NCBI GenBank assembly: GCA_030446715.1
Contig: JAUJMU010000003.1
Location: 517,630 to 581,629 of the forward strand
Source of the DNA: Cytophagales bacterium
Lineage (GTDB): Bacteria > Bacteroidota > Bacteroidia > Cytophagales > 172606-1
Direction of reading: 5' to 3'
Length of the DNA: 64,000 bases
Under the pieces are notes generated by a model, which saw only the letters and a program-made list of their open reading frames with translations, was not told the DNA's origin and did no database searches. Shown in pieces: positions 2,793 through 61,768 of this stretch; the first letter of the stretch is position 1; each line of letters starts with the position of its first letter. A program made the position numbers and the translations under genes.

Positions 2793-3685
2793 TCAGATAA
2801 CCAAACTCTCTTTAGCCGTCAGAACCTTCAGGCTGCGGGGCAATATTTGCAGTTGCAGTTTTGCCTCCATCCAGTGCGGCTCTCCGTCCAGATGCACCGG
2901 TCCCGGCCCGGGTCTTTCCATGGTGGCTTCCGGGGTTCTGATTATATGGAGGTATTTTGACTGATGCAGGGTACGGTTAAATAGTTTCAGGCCAAGGTTC
3001 AGAGCCATTGCCGGCGGAAAAGGCTTCAGGACGCAAACGTCAATAAGGCCGTCGCGGATGCTGGCTTCCGGGGAAATGAATGCATCATTGCCGTACTGGG
3101 CAGCATTGGCAAAACTCACCAGAAAGGCGGTTTGCTCTGCAGTTTTACCTCCGATGGTCAGTCGGTACAGATCAGGCTTGTAGGAAAAAATTCACCAAGG
3201 GTGGTCTGAACGTAGGCCTGAAAGCCGCGTTTGGTTTTGCCTTCAAACTTCAGCCCGATGTACGCATCAAAACCGGCTCCGGCAGTACAGAAAAAAGGCG
3301 TACCGTTCAAAGTAACACTGTCAATCGTGACAACATTTGCCTTGCCCAGCATCCGGAGGGAGGCAACCGTGTCAAGCGGAATCTTCAGGTGCCGGGCAAG
3401 GCCGTTGCCTGAGCCCATCGGAATAATTCCAAGGGCAACGGGAGTGTTGACCAGACTTCGGGCAGATTCATTCATGGTTCCGTCACCGCCTACCGCCACC
3501 ACGTAATCAAATGATTCCGTTACCGCCCGGGCTGCGAGTTCCACGGCGTGGCCCTTTGCCTCCGTAAAAGCAATTTCGTAATCAAAGGCTTCTCCGGAAA
3601 CGTATGCGCGGATCAATTCCGCCTTGCGTTCCTTGGACCGGGTTCCGGAAAAAGGGTTGACGATAAATAAAACCTTCTTTTTCAA
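2793..3685 (-). pseudogene. Diacylglycerol kinase-family lipid kinase, frameshifted
   Basis: The N-terminal part (3685 down to about 3190) starts MKKKVLFIVNPFSGT and carries the DAGK catalytic motif VAVGGDGTMNE (about residues 63-73) and the MGSGNGLAR loop (about 91-99), as in YegS/DgkB-type kinases that phosphorylate diacylglycerol or related lipids with ATP. The frame then ends early near 3158. The C-terminal half (SFANAAQYGNDAFISPEA onward to LVI) continues in another frame to 2793. Adding one T in the homopolymer at 3185-3190 rejoins the halves as EFFSYKPDLYRLTIGG and gives a normal 297-residue protein. Either the gene is freshly broken or, more likely, a base is missing in a homopolymer call. 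Confidence 0.85.
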
Positions 3686-3734
3686 AGCAGTGGCAGGCTT
3701 GGTCTGGAAAACACTTGTACTAACTTTTCGGACA

Positions 3735-3767
3735 AAACCTGTAAGATTTTGAAAACCTTACAGGTTT
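3735..3767. repeat. Palindromic intergenic repeat
   Basis: An 11-bp perfect inverted repeat, AAACCTGTAAG (3735-3745) and CTTACAGGTTT (3757-3767), with an 11-base spacer. It lies between the lipid kinase and aldolase genes and has no T-tract. I believe similar palindromes recur in Bacteroidota spacers. Confidence 0.6.
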
Positions 3768-3938
3768 ACCAGCAGTATCCTGCTCCGGTAAGTTGTGGCG
3801 CAGTCTATAGATTATCCCGAAGAGCCGGACAAAAATACCCCCGGCGGAGGTGAAAGGGGTAAATATAAAGCAGTCTGTTAAGGTTTCGGCAATAATGCCT
3901 AATTTTGAATCAGATCGTACCACTACAACCAGGGGGTT

Positions 3939-5012
3939 ATGTCATACCAGAAAATCCTTGAATTACTTGGAAATGAGCAGGAACTGTTGTTGAATCACAC
4001 CTGCCGGACGATTTCCAGAGAACAGCTTCACCTGCCTTCACCAGGCTTTCTGGATACGGTTTTTGCCATTTCCAACCGCAGTCCTCAGGTGCTGCGCAGT
4101 CTGGCGCAGTTGTTTGGGAATGGCAGACTAGCGGGAACCGGCTTCCTTTCGATCCTTCCCATTGATCAGGGAATTGAACACAGCGCAGGAGCCTCTTTTG
4201 CGAAAAATCCCATTTATTTTGACCCGGAAAATATAGTAAAGCTGGCAATCGAAGGTGGCTGCAACGCCGTAGCCACTACTTTCGGTGGCCTTGCTTTTCT
4301 GTCGCGGAAATACGCCCACAAGATCCCTTTCATTGTAAAAATCAACCACAATGAACTGCTTACCCACCCCAACAAATATGACCAGGTTATGTTTGGCTCC
4401 GTGCAGGATGCCTGGGAACTGGGTGCCGTCGCCGTCGGTGCGACCATCTACTTTGGCTCCGACGAATCAACCCGCCAGATCGTAGAAGTTGCCCAGGCCT
4501 TTGAAGAGGCGCGGTCCCTTGGCCTTGCAACTATCCTCTGGTGCTACACCCGCAACAACGCATTCAAGAAAGACGGGGTGGACTATCATCTTTCTGCCGA
4601 CCTGACGGGGCAGGCCAACCACCTTGGCGTAACGATCCAGGCGGACATTATCAAACAAAAATTACCGGAAAACAACGGTGGCTTCAAAGCACTCAATATG
4701 AGCGGCTCCAGCTACGGCAAAACCGACGAACGGATCTATACCCAACTGACCACTGACCACCCGATTGACCTGTGCCGCTACCAGGTGGCAAACTGCTACA
4801 TGGGCCGGGCCGGACTGATCAATTCAGGTGGTGCCTCCAGCGGTGAATCGGATATGAAAGAGGCTGTCCGCACTGCCGTGATCAACAAACGGGCTGGCGG
4901 CATGGGACTGATTTCCGGAAGAAAAGCTTTTCAGCGGCCGGTAAAGGAAGGCGCTGCCATTCTGCAAGCGATTCAGGATGTGTATCTTGCCAAAGAAATA
5001 ACTGTGGCATAA
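3939..5012 (+). CDS. fbaB: Class I fructose-bisphosphate aldolase (FbaB/DhnA type)
   Basis: A 357-residue protein with the features of the archaeal/bacterial class I aldolase family: [10 protein letters not shown] (substrate phosphate/active-site region, about residue 73), [20 protein letters not shown] (about 91-110), and the C-terminal phosphate-binding segment with [10 protein letters not shown] and [17 protein letters not shown]. It would cleave fructose 1,6-bisphosphate to dihydroxyacetone phosphate and glyceraldehyde 3-phosphate through a Schiff-base lysine, in glycolysis and gluconeogenesis in the cytoplasm. Length and motifs match the family. accD follows 123 bases downstream on the same strand; the spacer contains the AT-rich degenerate repeat. 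Confidence 0.9.
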
Positions 5013-11035: not shown

Positions 11036-12064
11036 TTACTTGGTGTATACCACCATCTGGTTTACCAGGTAAGCAGGTTTGGAGGTAATCAGATTATACA
11101 CCTTGTCAGTGAAATAGGCAGCGCCGGCGGCCGCTGAATTACCCACTCCCATCACCTGCCAGCGGGCAAAAGTACCATCGGCATTCTGGCCGGTCAGGAC
11201 TTCGCCCGCGGCAAGATTCCCCAGCGGCTTGATGCCGCTTCTGGTCCAGACCGGATGATTCGGGGTTGCCTCCAGCATCTGGCTGCCTCCCCCCAGATCT
11301 GTGTTCAGGGAAGCAAACAATTCCACCCGCGACAAAAAGACGGTATTGATTCCGTAAAGCTGCTGGGCATGGACCTCAACTTCCTGCACGGTGGCAGTTT
11401 CGTACGTGCCGGTTTCGGTGTTATAACTTGCAACCTGGTCTCCGGCTCTCACCTGACTGATCGGCAGCAGCCTTCCGTCAGCCATGGTGACCACCGCGAA
11501 AGCCGGGAAACAAACATCAAAGTCAGTTTTACTGCCGGTGGAAGCAGTCGTGCCGGCGCCTCCACCGGCCAGAACGGCCATTTCCCGGGAAGTCACGTAA
11601 GAAAAAGCTGACCCGAAGCCTTTTTCCATCGCATTATACTCTTTCAGGTCGTCAATGTACCGGGCCCATACCGCTTTGTCGGCCTGAGGGTTGGGAATAC
11701 AAACATTGAATTTCTTTTTGTCGCCGGGGGTAAAATAAATAACCACCATTCCAAGGGATGCTTTGGTTTTGTTATCGAGCAGGCGGTACAGGTAAATCCG
11801 CCGCTCGATTCCATCGCTGTATTTGAATACGTACGGTGGCCGCATTTCGTACCGGTCGAGTACATAGGCGTTGTCAAACTTCACATAGGTTTCGCCTTCG
11901 AGGTCACTGATCCCGAAAGTTTTGACTTTCCTGTATTCTTCCAGCGTAAGACCACGGGCTTTATCCTGGGCTACGGCGGAAATAGTAACTCCTGAGAACA
12001 AGGCGATAAAGAACAATGCCATCAGACGGGCAATAGCCGGGAATCGGGATAGTTGTAGGTACAT
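11036..12064 (-). CDS. Secreted protein with C-terminal Hint (hedgehog/intein) domain
   Basis: A 342-residue protein with an N-terminal signal peptide (hydrophobic segment about 13-30, cleavage near VAQ). Residues about 35-180 form a domain I do not recognise, ending in a Gly/Ala/Ser/Thr linker (AGGGAGTTASTGS). From Cys185 (DVCFPAFAVVTMADGRLL) a Hint fold begins, with the typical PISQVRAGDQVASY block, the T267-x-x-H270 motif (ATPNHPVW) and the final KVYNLITSKP/YLVNQMVVY block. It ends without the His-Asn of inteins, so any self-processing would resemble the hedgehog N-S acyl shift at Cys185 rather than splicing. It has its own terminator and probably its own promoter in the 367-base spacer. 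Confidence 0.75.
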   Translation of the reverse strand: MYLQLSRFPAIARLMALFFIALFSGVTISAVAQDKARGLTLEEYRKVKTFGISDLEGETYVKFDNAYVLDRYEMRPPYVFKYSDGIERRIYLYRLLDNKTKASLGMVVIYFTPGDKKKFNVCIPNPQADKAVWARYIDDLKEYNAMEKGFGSAFSYVTSREMAVLAGGGAGTTASTGSKTDFDVCFPAFAVVTMADGRLLPISQVRAGDQVASYNTETGTYETATVQEVEVHAQQLYGINTVFLSRVELFASLNTDLGGGSQMLEATPNHPVWTRSGIKPLGNLAAGEVLTGQNADGTFARWQVMGVGNSAAAGAAYFTDKVYNLITSKPAYLVNQMVVYTK

Positions 12065-12431
12065 GATTTAAAAGTTTAGAATACAGGTAAGGGATTTTTT
12101 GGAAATTTATTTAAAAGCCATCAAATAGTATAGAATTTAATTTTACAAATTTCACTTTATGCAAAATTTAATATTAAAAGCTACAATAATACCACCAACT
12201 TATACTTTGAAAATATCATTTTACAGCTTTTTATCACTGTCAGCATACTTAGCCGTTCATCCTTCTTATTGCCCGAAAGTATAACACTATAAGAGTTTTC
12301 CGTGACTGATTTTCAAAAAATCAATAATTTTAAAGGTTAGTAATACAATCAGGCGACCGCAGGAAAAGCAACTGAGTCTTTCAACCTGCCGCCTGGTTTG
12401 GCCACCCGTAATTCCTAAACCATAAGATAAC
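12065..12431. other. AT-rich divergent promoter region
   Basis: This 367-base spacer lies between the divergent Hint-protein gene and tldD. It is strongly AT-rich from 12065 to 12250 and has no coding frame. It should contain both promoters; a TTATACTTTG sequence around 12200 resembles a Bacteroidota -7 box but is not an exact match. Confidence 0.4.
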
Positions 12432-14078
12432 TTGAATCGCAGAAACTTTATTCAACTGACCGGACTGGGTATGGGGGCAATGATGATGCCTGCCATACCG
12501 GTTACCGGCAACCCGGTTGCACCCGAGGCAATGACCGGACGGATGGATGCCGTTGTAAACAAACGTCTCGCTGATGCGGCACTCAACGCTGCCCGGTCGA
12601 AAGGCGCCACGTACACCGATGTCCGGATCGGCCGGTACCTCAATCAGTTTATCATTACCCGCGAAAAGCAGGTGCAGAACATTGTCAATACTGAATCATT
12701 TGGCGTTGGGGTGCGGGTACTGGCCAATGGAACCTGGGGCTTTGCCGCCACCAGCGACGTTACCGAAACCGGCATTGCCCGGGCGGCCGAACAGGCAGTT
12801 GCCATTGCCAAAGCCAACTCAAAGATTCAGAAGGACCCTGTAAAACTCGCTCCGCAGAAGGGCTACGGCGAGGTGAGCTGGAAAACGCCCATTGTGAAAA
12901 ACGCCTTCCAGGTGCCGGTTGCCGAAAAGGTGGACCTTCTCCTGCGGGCCAATGCCAAAGCCTTGGAGGGTGGCGCCAACTTTGTAAACTCTCAGCTTTT
13001 CCAGATCAACGAGCAGAAGTACTTCGCCTCTACCGACGGCTCCTACATTGATCAGGATGTCCACCGGATATGGCCTAATTTCAGCGTAACCTGCATTGAC
13101 CGCCAGACGGGTAAATTCCGGACGCGTCAGGCCCTGAGCGCCCCCCGCGGCATGGGCTACGAATACCTGGATGGCCGCCCCGACGGTAAAATTGCCGGCC
13201 CGACCGGCACCGGGATCAACGGCTACAAAGACTCCTACGACATGGTGGAAGACGCCGCGGCTGCCGCAAAACAGGCTAAGGAAAAACTGACTGCCAAATC
13301 AGTGGAGCCCGGCAAATATACGCTGGTGCTTGACCCTGACCATCTCGGGCTTACCATTCACGAATCCATCGGACACGCCACCGAACTTGACCGCGTACTT
13401 GGTTACGAGGCAAACTATGCCGGCACTTCCTTTGCCACGCTTGACAAATGGCAAGGCAAAAACTTCCAGTACGGCAGCAAAATCGTAAACATTTTTGCCG
13501 ATAAGACTCAGCCCGGCTCCCTTGGCGCAGTCGGTTACGACGACGAAGGTGTAAAAACCAAAAGATGGGACCTGATCAAAGAAGGTGTATTGGTGAATTA
13601 CCAGGCAACCCGGGATCAGGTTCACGTGCTTGGTGAAAACGAATCGCACGGGTGCTGCTACGCCGATAACTGGAGCAGTGTGCAGTTTCAGCGGATGCCT
13701 AATGTGTCGCTGGCCCCGGGTCAGGCGAAGTACTCCGTTGACGACATGGTGAAGGATGTGGACAAAGGCATTTACATTGCCGGACGGGGCTCGTTTTCAA
13801 TTGATCAGCAGCGCTACAACTTTCAGTTTGGCGGCACCCTGTTCTACGAAATCCAGGGTGGCAAAATCGTCGGGCCGATGGAAGACGTTGCCTATCAGTC
13901 CAACACGCAGGAATTCTGGAATTCCTGCTCCCGGATCTGCGACGAAAGCGACTACCGCCTGTTTGGCTCTTTCTTCGACGGCAAAGGTCAGCCCGGGCAG
14001 GTAAGTGCCGTGTCGCACGGAAGCGCCACTACCCGTTTTGACAACATCAATGTGATCAACACCGCCCGGAAGATTTAG
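12432..14078 (+). CDS. TldD/PmbA-family metallopeptidase with Tat-like leader
   Basis: A 548-residue TldD-type protein. Translation appears to start at a TTG (12432) giving MNRRNFIQLTGLGMGA, a twin-arginine-like leader with a hydrophobic stretch, so export is likely. The catalytic zinc motif H310ESIGH315 is followed by ATELDRVLGYEANYAGTSF, and the C-terminal half carries the conserved GSFSIDQQRYNFQFGG region. In other bacteria TldD and TldE form a heterodimeric protease that degrades unfolded peptides and matures some modified peptides. tldE follows 103 bases downstream on the same strand, so the two probably form one operon. The exported form is a Bacteroidota trait rather than the enterobacterial cytoplasmic arrangement. 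Confidence 0.85.
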   Translation: MNRRNFIQLTGLGMGAMMMPAIPVTGNPVAPEAMTGRMDAVVNKRLADAALNAARSKGATYTDVRIGRYLNQFIITREKQVQNIVNTESFGVGVRVLANGTWGFAATSDVTETGIARAAEQAVAIAKANSKIQKDPVKLAPQKGYGEVSWKTPIVKNAFQVPVAEKVDLLLRANAKALEGGANFVNSQLFQINEQKYFASTDGSYIDQDVHRIWPNFSVTCIDRQTGKFRTRQALSAPRGMGYEYLDGRPDGKIAGPTGTGINGYKDSYDMVEDAAAAAKQAKEKLTAKSVEPGKYTLVLDPDHLGLTIHESIGHATELDRVLGYEANYAGTSFATLDKWQGKNFQYGSKIVNIFADKTQPGSLGAVGYDDEGVKTKRWDLIKEGVLVNYQATRDQVHVLGENESHGCCYADNWSSVQFQRMPNVSLAPGQAKYSVDDMVKDVDKGIYIAGRGSFSIDQQRYNFQFGGTLFYEIQGGKIVGPMEDVAYQSNTQEFWNSCSRICDESDYRLFGSFFDGKGQPGQVSAVSHGSATTRFDNINVINTARKI

Positions 14079-52191: not shown

Positions 52192-54060
52192 CTACATCTT
52201 ATTGCCGTACAGCACTACGCAGTATGGCGGCAGCGTCAGGGTGCCCGATGTGCCTAATTCGTCGGGCAAACCGGCTGGTTTCTGGCGGCCAGTGTTTTCG
52301 GTAGTCTGCCACTGGCTGTCACCCGAGCTGAGTACTTTCCGAAGGGAGGCAGTTTGCCTCGTTACCGGATAGGAGCAAGGCTCAGGGCCGAAGTTGAAAA
52401 AGCAAACAACCTGATTTAAGCCGGTCTGCCGGTGCATTGCCAGACCCTGCGGCTGCAAAACCTCTACGTGCATGCCCGCCCGGGAAAGGTCGCTCAGGGC
52501 AGGCCACTCCCTCCGCAAAGCAATCAGGGTTTTGTACCAATCCAGCATTACTTTGTGCCTGCCCCTTGCGGTTTTTTCCCAATCCAGTTTGCACCGCTCA
52601 AAGGTCTCCTCCGCCTGCGGATCCGGCACCTCACCCGACCACTTGAATTTAGCAAACTCCTGCTTCCGCCCCTGCCTGACGGCCTCTACCAGATCCTTGT
52701 CGGTGTGGCTGATGAAATACTGGTAGGGATTATCCTCGGCATACTCTTCACCCATGAAAAGCATAGGAATGTAAGGCGAAAGCAGCATGACGGCGGCGGC
52801 CAGCTGAAGCTGTTCAAAAGACAGGGTTTGGGTAATCCGGTCGCCCAGCATCCGGTTGCCTACCTGGTCATGGTTCTGGATGCACACCACGAAGTGTTCA
52901 CCCGAAATCCCGGCTGAGGCATTGCCGTATTTCCGCTTGCGGTAGGGAGAAAAAACTCCATCGTACACAAAGCCGTTCTGCAAGGCTTTGGCTACGTGCT
53001 CCACCTTACCGTAATCATCGTAGTAGCCGTCCCGTTCACCGGTCAGCAGGGCATGGAGGGCGTGGTGGAGGTCGTCCATCCACTGAGAGTCGAAGCCGAA
53101 GCCGTGCTTCTCCAGCGGCCGGATCACTTTGGTATCGTTGAGATCACTTTCAGCAATGGTGTACCGCTTCCAGCCGGAGCGTCTGGATAAGGCCTGCACT
53201 TTTTCGTTGACCAGTTGCCAGAAATGCCTCGCGCCCATGTCGAATACGGAATGGATGGCGTCGAGCCGGAGGCCGTCGAGGTGATACTGTTCAAGCCAGT
53301 AGACGGCACTGTCCGAAAAAAACTCCCGCACCCCGTCGGCGTACTCCTCGTCGTAGTTGAGGGCGTCGCCCCAGGGCGTCCGGTATTTTTCGATGAAATA
53401 AGGTCCGAACTCCCGAAGGTAATTGCCTTCCGGCCCCATGTGGTTGTATACAATATCAAGGACTACAGCTATTCCCCGGGCGTGGCATTCATCCACAAAC
53501 TGCTTCATGTCGTCAGGAGTCCCGTAGGAGTTCTGAACAGAGTAGGGATATACGCCATCGTAGCCCCAGTTGCGGGAACCCGGAAATTGGGATACGGGCA
53601 TGATCTCAATCGCCGTAATGCCAAGCTGAGCCAGGTAATCCAATTTGCGGATGGCACCGGCAAAGTTTCCTTCCGGGGAAAAAGTTCCGATGTGCATTTC
53701 GTAGATGATCCAGCTGGTGAGGCTGGTCCCCTTCCAGCCCGTATCCTTCCACCGGTATGCATTATGGTCTACCACCTGCGAGGGTCCGTGTACACCTTCG
53801 GGTTGAAACTTTGAGGCCGGGTCAGGCCGGTTATCTTTGCCATCCACCCGGAAGAAATACGCCGTTCCCGGCTGTACATCCTTCATATCCGCCTCAAAAT
53901 ATCCGTCGCCACGCTTTTCCATTGCAACTGTGCGGTCCTGGGGTGTTACCAGGTTAAGCTGAACTTCTCCGGCCATCGGAGCCCACACCAGAAACTGGCA
54001 TCTTCCATCGCCAAGGTATTGTGATCCGGCGTGCATCATTGCGGCTTGTTGTGCTTTCAT
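52192..54060 (-). CDS. treZ: Malto-oligosyltrehalose trehalohydrolase
   Basis: A 622-residue GH13 enzyme. An N-terminal carbohydrate-binding E-set domain (FLVWAPMAGEVQLNLV, DPASKFQPEGVHGPSQVVD) is followed by a (beta/alpha)8 barrel with GLRLDAIHSVFD (Asp nucleophile), YTIAESDLND (Glu acid/base) and CIQNHDQVGNRM (third Asp). It releases trehalose from the reducing end of maltooligosyl-trehalose. The partner treY is not in this window. Length and domain order match TreZ well. Confidence 0.9.
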   Translation of the reverse strand: MKAQQAAMMHAGSQYLGDGRCQFLVWAPMAGEVQLNLVTPQDRTVAMEKRGDGYFEADMKDVQPGTAYFFRVDGKDNRPDPASKFQPEGVHGPSQVVDHNAYRWKDTGWKGTSLTSWIIYEMHIGTFSPEGNFAGAIRKLDYLAQLGITAIEIMPVSQFPGSRNWGYDGVYPYSVQNSYGTPDDMKQFVDECHARGIAVVLDIVYNHMGPEGNYLREFGPYFIEKYRTPWGDALNYDEEYADGVREFFSDSAVYWLEQYHLDGLRLDAIHSVFDMGARHFWQLVNEKVQALSRRSGWKRYTIAESDLNDTKVIRPLEKHGFGFDSQWMDDLHHALHALLTGERDGYYDDYGKVEHVAKALQNGFVYDGVFSPYRKRKYGNASAGISGEHFVVCIQNHDQVGNRMLGDRITQTLSFEQLQLAAAVMLLSPYIPMLFMGEEYAEDNPYQYFISHTDKDLVEAVRQGRKQEFAKFKWSGEVPDPQAEETFERCKLDWEKTARGRHKVMLDWYKTLIALRREWPALSDLSRAGMHVEVLQPQGLAMHRQTGLNQVVCFFNFGPEPCSYPVTRQTASLRKVLSSGDSQWQTTENTGRQKPAGLPDELGTSGTLTLPPYCVVLYGNKM

Positions 54061-56410: not shown

Positions 56411-58636
56411 TTACACCACCTGGAATTCCTTCACTTCGCTCAGGTTTTGCAGCATAACGGCATCTCGGATATACCTTTCAATGGCGTGTTCGAGTGGCGG
56501 CAGCAGCCATGCCTTTTCACTTGCCAGCACGGTATTCCGCACAGGCAGCCGGGCCTGATTTTTCATTTGCCCCTTGTACCAGCCTTCTACCTGAGTCTCC
56601 GGCAACCCTGCCTTAAGGGCTACCAGCCGGGCAAATTCGGCCCAGCTGACATTGCCCGGATTCGCCGAGTGCCAGATTCCCTCCGCTCCGTCCAGTAGCA
56701 GGTCGAGGCAGGCGTTCACAAGATCCACCACATAGGTAGGAGAAACCCGCACATGCGCCGCGGCCTCAAACGGTTCGCCGGCGGCAAGCTTACGCAGGGC
56801 AATGGTGGCAAAATTGTATTCATCCCAGGGACCAAAAAATGCACTGGTGCGGATTACAAGAGCCGATGGCAGCAATGCCAGCACGTCCTTTTCGGCCATT
56901 GCCTTGCTGGCTCCGTATACATTGACCGGGTTTACGGGATCACTCTCCAGATAGGGACTTCCCTTCTGGCCATTAAAAACGAGATCTGATGAAAAAGTGA
57001 GATAGCCCAGGCCATGGTCGCGGCAGGCTTTGGCCAGTTGGACCGCGCCAAAGTGATTGTCGAGGGAGCAACGGTCGGGTTCATCTTCCGCCTGATCCAC
57101 TTTCACGTAGCCCGCCGTGTTGATAACCGCCCATGGCTTTATCTTCTCCAGTGCTTTAGTAATGGATTGGGGATCAGTAATGTCCATCTCCGCCCGGTTT
57201 ACCAGCCGGTACGCAATGCCGCGGCTGGTGCAGATGCGGGCAAATGCCTGCCCGAGTGTGCCGGTAGCCCCGGTGATCAGAAGGGGTCTGCCTTCCGGAA
57301 AGACTTGACTGCTAGCGCATATTTCGTTGGCGAACCCGGGCCGCCTGATCCACCGGTCTTCCCGTTGCCACCACCCTTTTCCCTCCAGTATAGGATGTGC
57401 GGCGTTTCCGGTAGTGATAATTTCTTTTATAAGTCCGGCCAGCCCGGTAGGCCTCGGCTCGGGGCTCCGAAGATCCATCAGGCCTGGTTCATAGTAATGG
57501 CGGCTCTGCACGAGGAGGCTGTCCCAGTCGAAGGAGCCGAGCATCGCCCAGACCGTTATGGCGCGGATATCAGCCCCGTCAGCTTTTGCCTTATTGGCTT
57601 TCAACCATACCTGATGAAACCAACGCATGTGGTCTTCGCGGGTACAGCCGAGATGGACCTCAGTAACCGCAATGGGGATTTGGTACCGGTCCCATGCTTC
57701 TTTCAATAACCGGTCAGCGCCAGCCATCCTGACTTCCCTGATCCGGATGGCTTCGGTATCCACATAGGCATGCCGGCCGTTGCCGCCAACAAGGTGTGGC
57801 GGGTATTGTGCAATGCGGTGGTCGAGAAACCGTTCGCTGGTCAGGTAATGGTTAATCCCCAACAGGTCAGGCGGGCAGGGATTTTCCCAGAAAAACCGCA
57901 ATTCTTCCTCCGTCAGGCCGGAGCTGAGCAGGTGCTGCCAAAGCGGATGATCTCGTTTGACCCGTCCGCAGAGCAGATCAAACGAGAGCCACCGGCGGTG
58001 ATTTTCATAGACTGCCTGGTATTCAAGGCGGGGGGTACTGTGGGTCTGACCGAGGTCTTCGGTTTGTACAAGTCTGGCATCCGGCCTTATCTTCCGGATT
58101 TCCTGCATGGCAAGCACGGTTCCCTTGCATTCATGGTAAAGAATACGCAGAAAATTACCCGTACTACGGCCATGGGGATACCAATGCCCGTAGAGTCCGC
58201 AGAAGCGGGCAGTGGTAAGAGGCTCATTGACGGGAGTGTAATCGCGCACCCATGGATACCGGCGGGCTACCATACCGGCAAACTGAGCGAGTCCTTCCGC
58301 AAATGAAGGTGTTTCAATGGAGGCGTACTTCGGGCCGCTGCCGTGGTGGACCAACCCGACAATCGGATTCATGCCCGGCAATCTTAGTTTCTCCAGTCGC
58401 TCATCGGCCCATTGCCAGTCCGGCGTCTGCAGGCTTTGCGGTGCAGTACGTTCCCAAAGTACAGGGTAGCGGATGGTCCGGATGCCGAGGGCAGCAAAAC
58501 GATCCAGATCATCCGGGCGGAGTTCGTGTCCGCTCCGGATAATCTGATCCTTGTACTCTTCTCCTACCCGGTTAACCGTACATTCGATCCCACCCCATAT
58601 ATCAACCGGCAGGTGAAACTTTTTTACGTTGACCAT
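56411..58636 (-). CDS. Fusion of GH1-like glycosidase domain and RmlD-type sugar-nucleotide reductase
   Basis: A 741-residue two-domain protein. Residues about 1-410 are a glycoside hydrolase family 1-like barrel with acid/base TPVNEP (about residue 137) and putative nucleophile in VTEVHLG (about 325). Residues about 450-735 are a short-chain reductase of the RmlD type: LLITGATGTLGQAF, SSDLVFNGQKG, YGASK (Tyr-x3-Lys) and HVRVSPTYVVDLVNA. RmlD-type enzymes make deoxysugar nucleotides. The start codon overlaps the end of glf by 35 bases, so the pair is translationally coupled. The joint function is unknown; a role in building a galactofuranose- or deoxysugar-containing glycan is inferred. Confidence 0.82.
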   Translation of the reverse strand: MVNVKKFHLPVDIWGGIECTVNRVGEEYKDQIIRSGHELRPDDLDRFAALGIRTIRYPVLWERTAPQSLQTPDWQWADERLEKLRLPGMNPIVGLVHHGSGPKYASIETPSFAEGLAQFAGMVARRYPWVRDYTPVNEPLTTARFCGLYGHWYPHGRSTGNFLRILYHECKGTVLAMQEIRKIRPDARLVQTEDLGQTHSTPRLEYQAVYENHRRWLSFDLLCGRVKRDHPLWQHLLSSGLTEEELRFFWENPCPPDLLGINHYLTSERFLDHRIAQYPPHLVGGNGRHAYVDTEAIRIREVRMAGADRLLKEAWDRYQIPIAVTEVHLGCTREDHMRWFHQVWLKANKAKADGADIRAITVWAMLGSFDWDSLLVQSRHYYEPGLMDLRSPEPRPTGLAGLIKEIITTGNAAHPILEGKGWWQREDRWIRRPGFANEICASSQVFPEGRPLLITGATGTLGQAFARICTSRGIAYRLVNRAEMDITDPQSITKALEKIKPWAVINTAGYVKVDQAEDEPDRCSLDNHFGAVQLAKACRDHGLGYLTFSSDLVFNGQKGSPYLESDPVNPVNVYGASKAMAEKDVLALLPSALVIRTSAFFGPWDEYNFATIALRKLAAGEPFEAAAHVRVSPTYVVDLVNACLDLLLDGAEGIWHSANPGNVSWAEFARLVALKAGLPETQVEGWYKGQMKNQARLPVRNTVLASEKAWLLPPLEHAIERYIRDAVMLQNLSEVKEFQVV

Positions 58637-59756
58637 TGGTGCGTTTTATAGTTTCAGCAGCCGAGGTACGCAGCGCCAGTTTTTTATAAAGCGTCAGCGC
58701 CTGAGCTACTACCTGATCCATATTGTAGTACCGGTACGTGCCTAAGCGGCCCGCAAAATGCACGTGCGGCATATCCTCGGCCAGTGACTGGTACCGGCGG
58801 TACAGCTCTGCGTTTTCGGGCCGGGGGATGGGATAGTACGGATCACCCTCTGCACTCGGAAATTCGTAGGTAATACTGGTTTTATCGCTTTTCTGACCGG
58901 TCAGGTACTTGTACTCCGTTACCCGGGTGTAGGCGTGGTCATTCGGAAAATTGACCACCGCAACCGGCTGGTGCCACTCCTCATTGAGGGTAACGTGTTT
59001 GAAATGCAGAGACCGGTAAGGCAGCTTTCCGTAGCAGTAGTCGAAGTACTCATCAACCGGACCGGTAAAGATCAACTCTTTGTAGGGCACAAATCCTTCC
59101 ACATCCTGATAATCGGTGTTCAGGAGGATGTGGATGTTCTTGTTGTCCAGCATGTTTTCAAACATGCGGGTGTAGCCATGCAGCGGCATATACTGATACT
59201 CGTCGGTAAAGTACCGGTCATCCTGATTGGTCCGCACGGGAATGCGTGAGGTCACGGATTTGTCCAGCTGGGATGGATCTACGCCCCACTGCTTGCGGGT
59301 GTAGCCCCGGAAAAACTTCTCATAAAGGTCACGGCCCACCTGGCTTACAACTACGTCTTCGGAGGTCCGGATGGTATCTATCTTTTCGCCGATGCTGGCG
59401 AAATATTGGGCAAGTTGTTCTGAGTTGAAGTTATGCCCATATAATTTGTTAACGGTATCGAGATTGATCGGAATTGGCAGCAGTTTGCCGGTTACCTGGG
59501 CAAGTACCTTGTGCTGGTAGGGGCGCCAGCGGGTAAACCTTGACAGGTAATTGAATACGTCAGGTGAGTTGGTGTGGAAAATATGGGGTCCGTATTTATG
59601 GATCAGAAGACCGTGGTCATCGTAAAAATCGTAAGCATTGCCGCCGATGTGGCTACGGCGGTCCAACAGCATCACTTTTTTACCACCCTCGTTGGCAAGC
59701 CGTTCCGCCAGGACACTGCCTGCAAAACCAGCTCCCACTATCAGATAATCGTACAT
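58602..59756 (-). CDS. glf: UDP-galactopyranose mutase
   Basis: A 384-residue flavoprotein starting MYDYLIVGAGFAGSVLAERL (an ATG two codons upstream is possible). DRRSHIGGNAYDFYDDHGLL (FAD-binding), KYGPHIFHTN, FFRGYTRKQWG and the C-terminal RLGTYRYYNMDQVVAQAL segments are characteristic of Glf. It interconverts UDP-galactopyranose and UDP-galactofuranose, the donor for galactofuranosyl glycans. It lies between a GT4-type glycosyltransferase gene (31 bases upstream) and the GH1-RmlD fusion gene (35-base overlap). Confidence 0.92.
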   Translation of the reverse strand: MYDYLIVGAGFAGSVLAERLANEGGKKVMLLDRRSHIGGNAYDFYDDHGLLIHKYGPHIFHTNSPDVFNYLSRFTRWRPYQHKVLAQVTGKLLPIPINLDTVNKLYGHNFNSEQLAQYFASIGEKIDTIRTSEDVVVSQVGRDLYEKFFRGYTRKQWGVDPSQLDKSVTSRIPVRTNQDDRYFTDEYQYMPLHGYTRMFENMLDNKNIHILLNTDYQDVEGFVPYKELIFTGPVDEYFDYCYGKLPYRSLHFKHVTLNEEWHQPVAVVNFPNDHAYTRVTEYKYLTGQKSDKTSITYEFPSAEGDPYYPIPRPENAELYRRYQSLAEDMPHVHFAGRLGTYRYYNMDQVVAQALTLYKKLALRTSAAETIKRTNGQRKKVSPAG

Positions 59757-59787
59757 AGTCATTATTGTAGTTTAAGGTCAACAGGAT

Positions 59788-61056
59788 TTAATTTTTAGAA
59801 GATCTTTTCACGCGAATGGCTCCGCCAATCAGGGTGGCCATTTTGTGCCAGGTGATGTCCCATGAATTCTGCTTCAGGAACGCATCAACCGTTGCCTGCC
59901 GGTCCTGATCGTCGCGTTCCGCGAGGGCTTTGCTGATGGCTTCTTCCATCTGAGCCACGTCAGCGGCAATATGAACCAGGGCCTCGTCGCCATAGGGCCG
60001 TACCACGTCACGGATCGGCGTAGAAACTACCGGTTTTCCGGCCGCCAGGTACTCGGGCGTTTTTGTGGGGCTGATAAAGCGCGTAGATTCATTCATGGCG
60101 AATAGCAGCAGTGCCACATCCCATCCACTCAGGTATTTGGGCAATTCGGGGTAGGATTTCATGCCCAGGTAGTGAATGTTGGGGCCATGAGGCAGTTCTT
60201 CCTGGCTGATCTTCACCACCGGACCCAGCATCACAAAATGCCAGTCGGGTCGTGCGGCGGCAATTCCACCTAATAATCCAATGTCAAATCTTTCGTCGAT
60301 CACGCCGTAGAAACCAAACCGGGGGTGCGGAATTGCCGCCTGATCCTCAGGGTCGGGCTGTGGCTGGCGGGCCTGCGCAAAATGTTCCTGTTCAATGCTG
60401 CTCGGGAAAGCGTGCACACTGGAGTGTCTTTCCTGTTTGGCTTCGTATAGGCTCTGGCCGCCGGTAAACACCAGGTCAGCTCTTTGAAAAAGTTCTTTTT
60501 CACGATCCAGCAGAATCGGCGGCGCTCCCCTGAATGCCGACAGCTCGTCCATGCAGTCGTACACAGTCACAAGTGGCTGCAGCGTTTGGGTGAAACCAAG
60601 GGCCATCGGGGTATAGTACCACGCGATGAAGGAGTCAATCTTTTGTTGGGGAAACAAAGGTTGCAGCAACTGCTCCACTCCTTTTTCCTGATCTTCGCGT
60701 TCCATGCCACCGGGCAGGTGCGGAATGACCACCCAGAGGTTTTGCTCCGGGTTCTGTACTTCAAGCCATTCGCCTCCGGGAGTGCCATCCCAATAAGGCT
60801 CTTCCACGAAGAAAACCCTTATATGCCTCATGAAGCGCGTCATGATGTGCTGAGGCCGCTGAAAAACAAAATTCCAGCGCAGGTGGGAAAAACATACAAG
60901 GTCAGGCACTGGCATTCCCGGCATCACCAATGGATTGTTCCGGTCACTGTCTGCGGTTGTCACGGTTATGCTGCTGCTTTGGGGAATTACTACCCGTGCG
61001 GATTTTTTTTCCCCTTTTGCCGGGGCAGGCATTAGCTGGTCATGTGGTTCTTTCAT
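59788..61056 (-). CDS. GT4-like glycosyltransferase
   Basis: A glycosyltransferase of the GT-B fold (422 residues if the ATG at 61056, MKEPHDQLMPAPAKGEKKSA, is the start; the frame is open to 61158). LVCFSHLRWNFVFQRPQHIM, ARPDWHFVMLGPVVKI, LSGWDVALLLFAMN and the acceptor-side SPTKTPEYLAAGKPVVSTP (E-x7-E-like) are typical of GT4 enzymes. It is the first gene of the glf operon and the likely galactofuranosyl- or other hexosyltransferase of the cluster. The poorly conserved, proline-rich N-terminus makes the start uncertain. Confidence 0.82.
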   Translation of the reverse strand: MKEPHDQLMPAPAKGEKKSARVVIPQSSSITVTTADSDRNNPLVMPGMPVPDLVCFSHLRWNFVFQRPQHIMTRFMRHIRVFFVEEPYWDGTPGGEWLEVQNPEQNLWVVIPHLPGGMEREDQEKGVEQLLQPLFPQQKIDSFIAWYYTPMALGFTQTLQPLVTVYDCMDELSAFRGAPPILLDREKELFQRADLVFTGGQSLYEAKQERHSSVHAFPSSIEQEHFAQARQPQPDPEDQAAIPHPRFGFYGVIDERFDIGLLGGIAAARPDWHFVMLGPVVKISQEELPHGPNIHYLGMKSYPELPKYLSGWDVALLLFAMNESTRFISPTKTPEYLAAGKPVVSTPIRDVVRPYGDEALVHIAADVAQMEEAISKALAERDDQDRQATVDAFLKQNSWDITWHKMATLIGGAIRVKRSSKN

Positions 61057-61768
61057 GTATAATATTGGTTCACTGGTATTCAGGCACACTGGTTTCATCC
61101 GGACAAGCGTAGCCCACGGCCGCAAGTCGGGAATAAAATGGTTAGAAAAAGTAAACAATGTAACGCAGCAGACACCGGGAACCCCTCTGTTTTCAGAGAG
61201 TCAAACTCTCTCCCGGTCAAAATTCTATGCTTTTGCAGCAGGTTGGATGCACGGCGGTTGATCTGTACTTACTTCGTCCGGAGAAAAGTGCTTTGGCGAT
61301 CCAAGCCGTGGTCATATACGGCAACACCCACCAGAGGGTTATAGCCGCGGCGGCCCCTCTGTAAAAAGTTTGGTGCCAAAGGTGGTGGTGTTTTTAAAAT
61401 CTCAGGGGGAGAGAAAGGTAAACCCCAACTGGCAGCTTTTGTTCCGCCGGCAGGTATGATTGGCAGAGGCTGCGAGCCATTTTGGAATATTTTATCAGAT
61501 ATGCTGATGCTGCCGGTTGCAAAACCCGAGTTAATTATACATAAAAGACTAAAAGTCAAAGCTTTGTTAATGGCCCCTTTCACAATTGAAGCCCAACATT
61601 GCCCATGTATGTTTTTGCCCTTTTTGTAAGGCCCCGTCTGAAATTTCTAGCTTAATATTGAGTTATTCTTATCCTGTTCCGAACACTATTTTTTTTCACC
61701 CAAAAGGCTCTTAGTGAAAAATAAGGTATAAATATTGTAACAAATTATAGCGAGCCACCTTACAGTTT
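61057..61768. other. Divergent spacer of the glycan cluster
   Basis: About 700 bases between the GT gene and the stand-alone GH1-like gene. 61610-61765 is AT-rich, suiting the promoter of the latter. A minus-strand frame at 61269-61583 has a signal-like start but a low-complexity, proline-rich body and is not accepted as a gene. The block 61320-61380 is GC-rich and may be a repeat. Confidence 0.4.

Follow-up and report, generated by a model that had tools for sequence, protein, structure and literature searches.

Plant SFR2 is a GH1-type protein, and dTDP-fucofuranose pathways of the Fcf1/Fcf2 type pair a reductase with a Glf-like mutase. SFR2 is a galactolipid:galactolipid galactosyltransferase, as stated in a passage of PMC11525325. 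The gene analyzed here, found in a 64,000-nucleotide stretch of a Cytophagales bacterium genome (the window), joins a GH1-like half to an RmlD-like half in a single protein, next to genes for a UDP-galactopyranose mutase (UGM; glf) and a glycosyltransferase (GT) (Table 1). The family is already in public annotation by name, and we found in the open-access literature no description of a GH1-RmlD fusion, of the four-activity set or of the function of the product.

Table 1. Features of the fusion gene, its neighbors in the window and its paralogue
Feature	Position	Strand	Basis or remark
TreZ, malto-oligosyltrehalose trehalohydrolase	52192-54060	-	744 bits vs 538.8; near the fusion gene
GH1-RmlD fusion gene, 741 aa	56411..58636	-	Single ATG-to-stop frame; Pfam and AlphaFold model
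RmlD-like SDR half, residues 450-727	56456..57289	-	Pfam, motifs, pocket comparison, Foldseek
YGASK, residues 574-578	Tyr574 56915-56917; Lys578 56903-56905	-	Catalytic motif
GATGTLG, residues 456-462	57251-57271	-	Cofactor glycine motif
Linker, residues 426-449	57290..57361	-	AlphaFold model; pLDDT <50 at residues 435-443
GH1-like half, residues 8-425	57362..58615	-	Pfam; Z 37.1; Glu pair kept in 116/116
Glu326, nucleophile position	57659-57661	-	Aligns with Glu of the TE(N) motif in solved GH1 enzymes
Glu138, acid/base position	58223-58225	-	Aligns with Glu of the NEP motif in solved GH1 enzymes
glf, UDP-galactopyranose mutase	58602..59762	-	Upstream of the fusion gene, overlap 35 nt; TIGR00031 389.1 vs 303.75
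Glycosyltransferase (Glyco_trans_1_4)	59788..61158	-	34.4 bits vs 27; TTG-started frame
Stand-alone GH1-like gene, 410 aa	61769-63001	+	Divergent from the GT gene
Second GH1-RmlD fusion, 797 aa, longer linker	L175:6925-9318, contig C2	-	Same genome

The initial annotation held that the fusion is real and not an assembly join, and our data confirm this. The frame is open over its 741 codons, a fused paralogue lies on another contig of the same genome, and full-length fused open reading frames (ORFs) occur in many independent assemblies, with fused homologues in six phyla. An assembly artifact is ruled out by the paralogue and by those assemblies. Pfam assigned Glyco_hydro_1 (PF00232) to residues 41-372, with 33.1 bits against a cut-off of 22.6, and RmlD_sub_bind (PF04321) to residues 452-708, with 192.6 bits against a cut-off of 27. 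The AlphaFold model obtained from an 85-row alignment had a mean pLDDT of 92.4 and a pTM of 0.91; it superseded an earlier model from 5 rows only (pLDDT 69.2). Both active-site sets described in that annotation are present (Table 1). The translation has no hydrophobic N-terminus, suggesting that the protein is cytosolic.

By sequence alone, the GH1 half matched PDB entries weakly (best E 2.4e-8). In the VIA structure comparison, its model superposed on the Thermotoga maritima GH1 enzyme with a Z score of 37.1 and an rmsd of 2.8 over 378 residues, and GH1 structures matched over fusion residues 8-412, as expected of a (beta/alpha)8 fold in the model. This comparison returned only GH1-type chains, all drawn by the GH1 half; the fold of the RmlD half rests on Foldseek. 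We aligned 116 proteins after removal of rows that repeat a gene already included (L001-L003, L005, L124, L125, L139, L140, L142) and of partial or frame-broken rows (L059, L089, L122, L129, L141). Both catalytic Glu residues were retained in every one of them, and so were His97, His98, Asn137, Tyr264, Trp363 and Trp371. The invariance of the Glu pair argues that glycosidase chemistry is what selection keeps. The possibility that the GH1 half is a dead lectin was ruled out by the same intact pair. His98 occupies a position usually held by Trp in solved GH1 enzymes, and Asp370, found in 103 of the 116 proteins, stands where these enzymes usually have Glu. These two departures indicate that the sugar site probably differs from that of a beta-glucosidase, and the fusion scored far below the cut-off of the beta-glucosidase equivalog TIGR03356 (43.6 vs 478.5).

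Foldseek on the model gave target-normalized TM-scores of up to 0.85 between the RmlD half and solved RmlD chains. In the window protein, the cofactor glycines and the Ser550-Tyr574-Lys578 triad are intact. The pocket of the fused family is consistently changed relative to that of single-domain RmlD. Among 104 fused proteins, Ser replaces the catalytic Thr in 99, Leu replaces the next Tyr/Phe in 92, Ala replaces Trp, presumably a sugar-pocket residue, in 95, and GYV is found where single-domain RmlD has AYT (G in 96, V in 92). Ser550 and Ala599 of the window protein lie at the Thr of the STD motif and at the Trp, respectively, whereas Thr was present in 16 and Trp in 15 of 20 single-domain rows, 4 of which are short, mis-extracted pieces mostly counted as gaps. 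The fusion also remained under the cut-off of the RmlD equivalog TIGR01214 (195 bits vs 224.05). Thus, a canonical RmlD identity is not supported by these scores and pocket changes, and the activity on dTDP-4-keto sugars that the initial annotation proposed to assay appears doubtful for this half.

The genome itself (G000) provides the main point in favor of a rhamnose-type role for the RmlD half. It has rmlB and two rmlC genes over their cut-offs and no RmlD over that of TIGR01214; the highest score for that model, 198 bits, is that of the window fusion, followed by 197 for a gene standing alone on contig 8 and 169 for the second fusion. At the best 79 of at least 571 loci (see below), rml genes were not among the 16 commonest neighbor clusters, ten of which were typed by Pfam.

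The RmlD half is usually intact but dispensable. All six key RmlD positions are kept in 93 of the 104 fused proteins, including that of the window, so the loss of substrate-binding residues in all homologues that the initial annotation had named as a refutation was not observed. The other 11 are altered at one or more of the six positions, a set that includes L135 and L148, each with a single triad change only. Two of the 116 aligned proteins have the RmlD half split off as a separate gene, 3 have only a 130- to 150-aa tail in its place, and 7 show no RmlD half. In each of the 11 altered proteins, mean identity to the intact set was lower for the RmlD half than for the GH1 half, with differences of 0.12-0.28; for L128, the values are 0.30 for the RmlD half and 0.58 for the GH1 half. 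In the control, intact against intact proteins, the gap was only 0.04 (0.620 vs 0.662); of 1500 sampled pairs, 1313 had the higher identity in the GH1 half.

We searched the short tails against five sequences. The tail of L154 matched an RmlD half over 142 columns (E 2e-5) and that of L153 did so with an E value of 2e-4, whereas L155 reached only 0.01. The first two matches support decay of the RmlD half after fusion in two of the three short proteins. The GH1 tree required 4 changes for the fused or not-fused state and 8 for the altered RmlD state, counts that alone give no direction. The tree was made with the 'quick' method, 8 further near-copies being omitted, and neither its root nor its long branches are certain. 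The row nearest to the window fusion in this tree is L040, whose RmlD half is altered while that of the window is intact.

The initial annotation had proposed that the reductase channels a sugar released by the glycosidase. In such a bifunctional enzyme, a sugar freed by the GH1 half would be reduced by the RmlD half, or the latter would be a dTDP-4-keto-sugar reductase tied to the modification of a glycan end. The single polypeptide, the conserved RmlD positions and the rml complement of the genome speak for it. The proteins whose RmlD half is altered, split off, shortened or not seen, with a Glu pair that is never lost, the replacement of the catalytic Thr and of the Trp, and the lack of rml genes among the commonest neighbor clusters typed all argue against it. 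Since the reductase half is optional, channeling is unsupported as the protein's raison d'etre, and we consider this explanation unlikely.

Alternatively, the RmlD half may be a non-catalytic scaffold or sensor that keeps Glf or GT attached to the GH1 half. MAT2B, which is regulatory for methionine adenosyltransferase, is among the matches, and the domain is retained in the 11 proteins with altered catalytic or cofactor residues. Against this, the triad and cofactor glycines are kept in the 93 others, which would hardly be the case without selection for catalysis, and a GH1-only protein of Ensifer still sits with GT and glf. A MAT2B-like function seems quite improbable.

We also surveyed the distribution of the family. 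A search of 148 genomes from the order of the window organism gave matches at E<=1e-60 in 17. Ten of them carry the fusion, truncated at a contig boundary in one case; in five, no RmlD ORF adjoins the GH1 half, and in two, G495 and G483, GH1 and RmlD are encoded by neighboring genes, an arrangement that the initial annotation had suggested looking for. The split RmlD genes bear the same pocket marks as the fused halves, indicating that they belong to the same lineage. At the phylum level, 41 of 395 genomes matched at E<=1e-30; full-length fusions were found in G000, G122, G033 and G190 only, the remaining matches covering one half. A scan of genome contigs yielded at least 571 stretches encoding any relative, of which we kept the best 79 loci: 61 from Cyanobacteriota, 8 from Acidobacteriota, 6 from Pseudomonadota, 2 from Bacteroidota and 2 from Chloroflexota. 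As the best of at least 571, this sample leans toward close relatives and Cyanobacteriota. In addition, 19 plasmid records have one place covering >=80% of the query at 44-58% identity, their hosts including Gloeothece, Deinococcus, Azospirillum, Microvirga, sphingomonads, Caballeronia and Runella. Public annotation calls the product 'family 1 glycosylhydrolase' in 13 of 20 plasmid regions (in one case for the first of two pieces), hypothetical protein in 4, SDR family oxidoreductase in 1 and sugar nucleotide-binding protein in 1, and 1 is not annotated. The plasmid of Azospirillum thermophilum has two fused copies approximately 3 kb apart (L144:5992-8274, plus strand, and 11382-13652, minus strand).

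The fusion is part of a four-activity set that comprises a glycosyltransferase, Glf, the GH1-like half and the RmlD-like half. The window glf is the only full glf of the genome, and the best solved relative of its product is the UGM of PDB 3hdq (E 6.4e-179). The true start of the GT frame may lie further inside than the TTG; the TuaH model gave this protein only 70.2 against a cut-off of 550. At the best 79 of at least 571 loci, the order GT, Glf, fusion on one strand was found in 62. The other loci have a different order (3), GT only (3), Glf only (2) or neither (9, of which 3 have <5 kb of upstream sequence). Both partners are present at 13 of the 20 plasmid loci, GT only at 3 (one a weak fragment) and neither at 4. 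In 38 of the same best 79 loci, the GT and Glf matches lie in a single ORF of 793-919 aa, a count that requires both matches inside the ORF, with Pfam run on one such ORF (L080); they form one annotated coding sequence in Gloeothece and in three Sphingobium plasmids. The partners of the fusion gene are thus themselves fused at these loci. In Ensifer, the GH1-half-only gene remains within a GT-glf operon. The occurrence of the same parts in fused and split forms suggests a single pathway for all four activities.

GT-glf pairs were also seen on their own. In Deinococcus radiodurans, the two genes overlap (L157:7842-10107), with no GH1-RmlD gene annotated within 9 kb; a table line of PMC7022480 names dr_A0367 UDP-galactopyranose mutase. 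Azospirillum lipoferum has GT-glf without an annotated GH1-RmlD gene within 7 kb. The paralogue in the Cytophagales genome has no glf beside it. It groups in the tree with the copy of G465 inside a mostly cyanobacterial clade, a placement that may reflect horizontal transfer.

The neighbor genes point to galactose and galactofuranose, as judged from their sequences. Of the best 79 of at least 571 loci, 21 have a same-strand galE relative that begins 16-566 nt downstream, and 45, all cyanobacterial, have one or more galE, galK or galT relatives in their flanks, as raw co-occurrence. One representative of each of these three clusters exceeds its NCBIfam cut-off. None of these genes is present in the window, and in this sample they were seen in cyanobacteria only. 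Other recurrent neighbors, also as raw counts over the same best 79 loci, are a PhyH-type oxygenase (27), GH43 (24) and GH2 (17) relatives. The two glycosidase families, the GH1 fold and the Glu pair would fit an ordinary cytosolic, catabolic beta-glucosidase fused by chance, with incidental neighbors. The TIGR03356 score, His98 and Asp370, and a GT-Glf link that holds across phyla make this improbable.

Two other window genes were considered. The stand-alone GH1-like protein is 28-31% identical to the fusion GH1 half across many loci, and close relatives of its gene (66-80%) are also divergent from GT in L039, L040 and L014. In L136, the GH1-only gene is followed by an ORF (2861-4225, plus strand) whose initial part looks like TreZ. 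A trehalose link was set aside as too thin, TreZ lying beside the window gene and one GH1-only gene only.

At about even odds, we favor the view that the fusion is a retaining enzyme of the cytosol that acts on galactosides, as hydrolase or transglycosidase, in concert with Glf and GT, and that its SDR half is accessory and dispensable. The GT-Glf linkage, the galE, galK and galT neighbors, the invariant Glu pair, the Ensifer operon and the altered or shortened RmlD halves speak for it. Against it stand the loci with neither partner (9 of the best 79 and 4 of the 20 plasmid loci), the paralogue that has no glf beside it, the restriction of the gal neighbors to cyanobacteria and the lack, elsewhere in this genome, of an RmlD over its cut-off. 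The set would handle galactose in the furanose form, with Glf converting UDP-Galp to UDP-Galf and GT putting Galf (or galactose) onto an acceptor. On this GT-made intermediate, the GH1 half would act by double displacement via Glu326, with Glu138 as the acid/base. It could cleave or, perhaps likelier in a biosynthetic operon, transfer a galactosyl-type residue. The RmlD half, as an SDR with a Ser-Tyr-Lys triad and NAD(P) as cofactor, would oxidize or reduce a sugar of this pathway other than dTDP-4-keto-rhamnose, and lineages without it would run the pathway minus the redox step. More tentatively, it is possible that GT, UGM, a GH1-type transglycosidase and the SDR form a galactofuranose cassette that has spread horizontally, as two composite proteins in many lineages. 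The GH1 half would then act in the cytosol as the synthase of a galactosyl glycoside or glycolipid not yet described, the redox-tailoring half being optional. The set occurs in six phyla, and a GH1 enzyme that acts next to a source of UDP-galactofuranose within a biosynthetic operon would be one more of the few cases in which a glycosidase fold serves synthesis. Such proteins should not be read as plain beta-glucosidases or dTDP-4-dehydrorhamnose reductases.

The fusion shares its fold and both catalytic Glu residues with GH1 beta-glycosidases (PF00232) such as the T. maritima beta-glucosidase. It differs from them by its low identity in structural rows (13-22%), by His98 and Asp370 in place of Trp and Glu, and by its C-terminal SDR half and GT-Glf neighbors. 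With RmlD, the dTDP-4-dehydrorhamnose reductase (PF04321/TIGR01214), it has in common the fold, the cofactor glycines and the Tyr-Lys pair, but most members of the fused family have the Ser/Leu/Ala/GYV pocket and the fusion is under the TIGR01214 cut-off. Unlike in the Fcf1/Fcf2-type pathways, the Glf here passes the UGM cut-off and accompanies the GH1 half even without the RmlD half. SFR2 offers a precedent for the use of a GH1-type enzyme in galactose transfer, likened by function and not by sequence kinship; it is an envelope protein of plants and, unlike the fusion, has no SDR half. The same end-to-end architecture is found in the RefSeq 'family 1 glycosylhydrolase' proteins of Gloeothece, Deinococcus, Azospirillum, Runella and other genera, which are annotated by name only.
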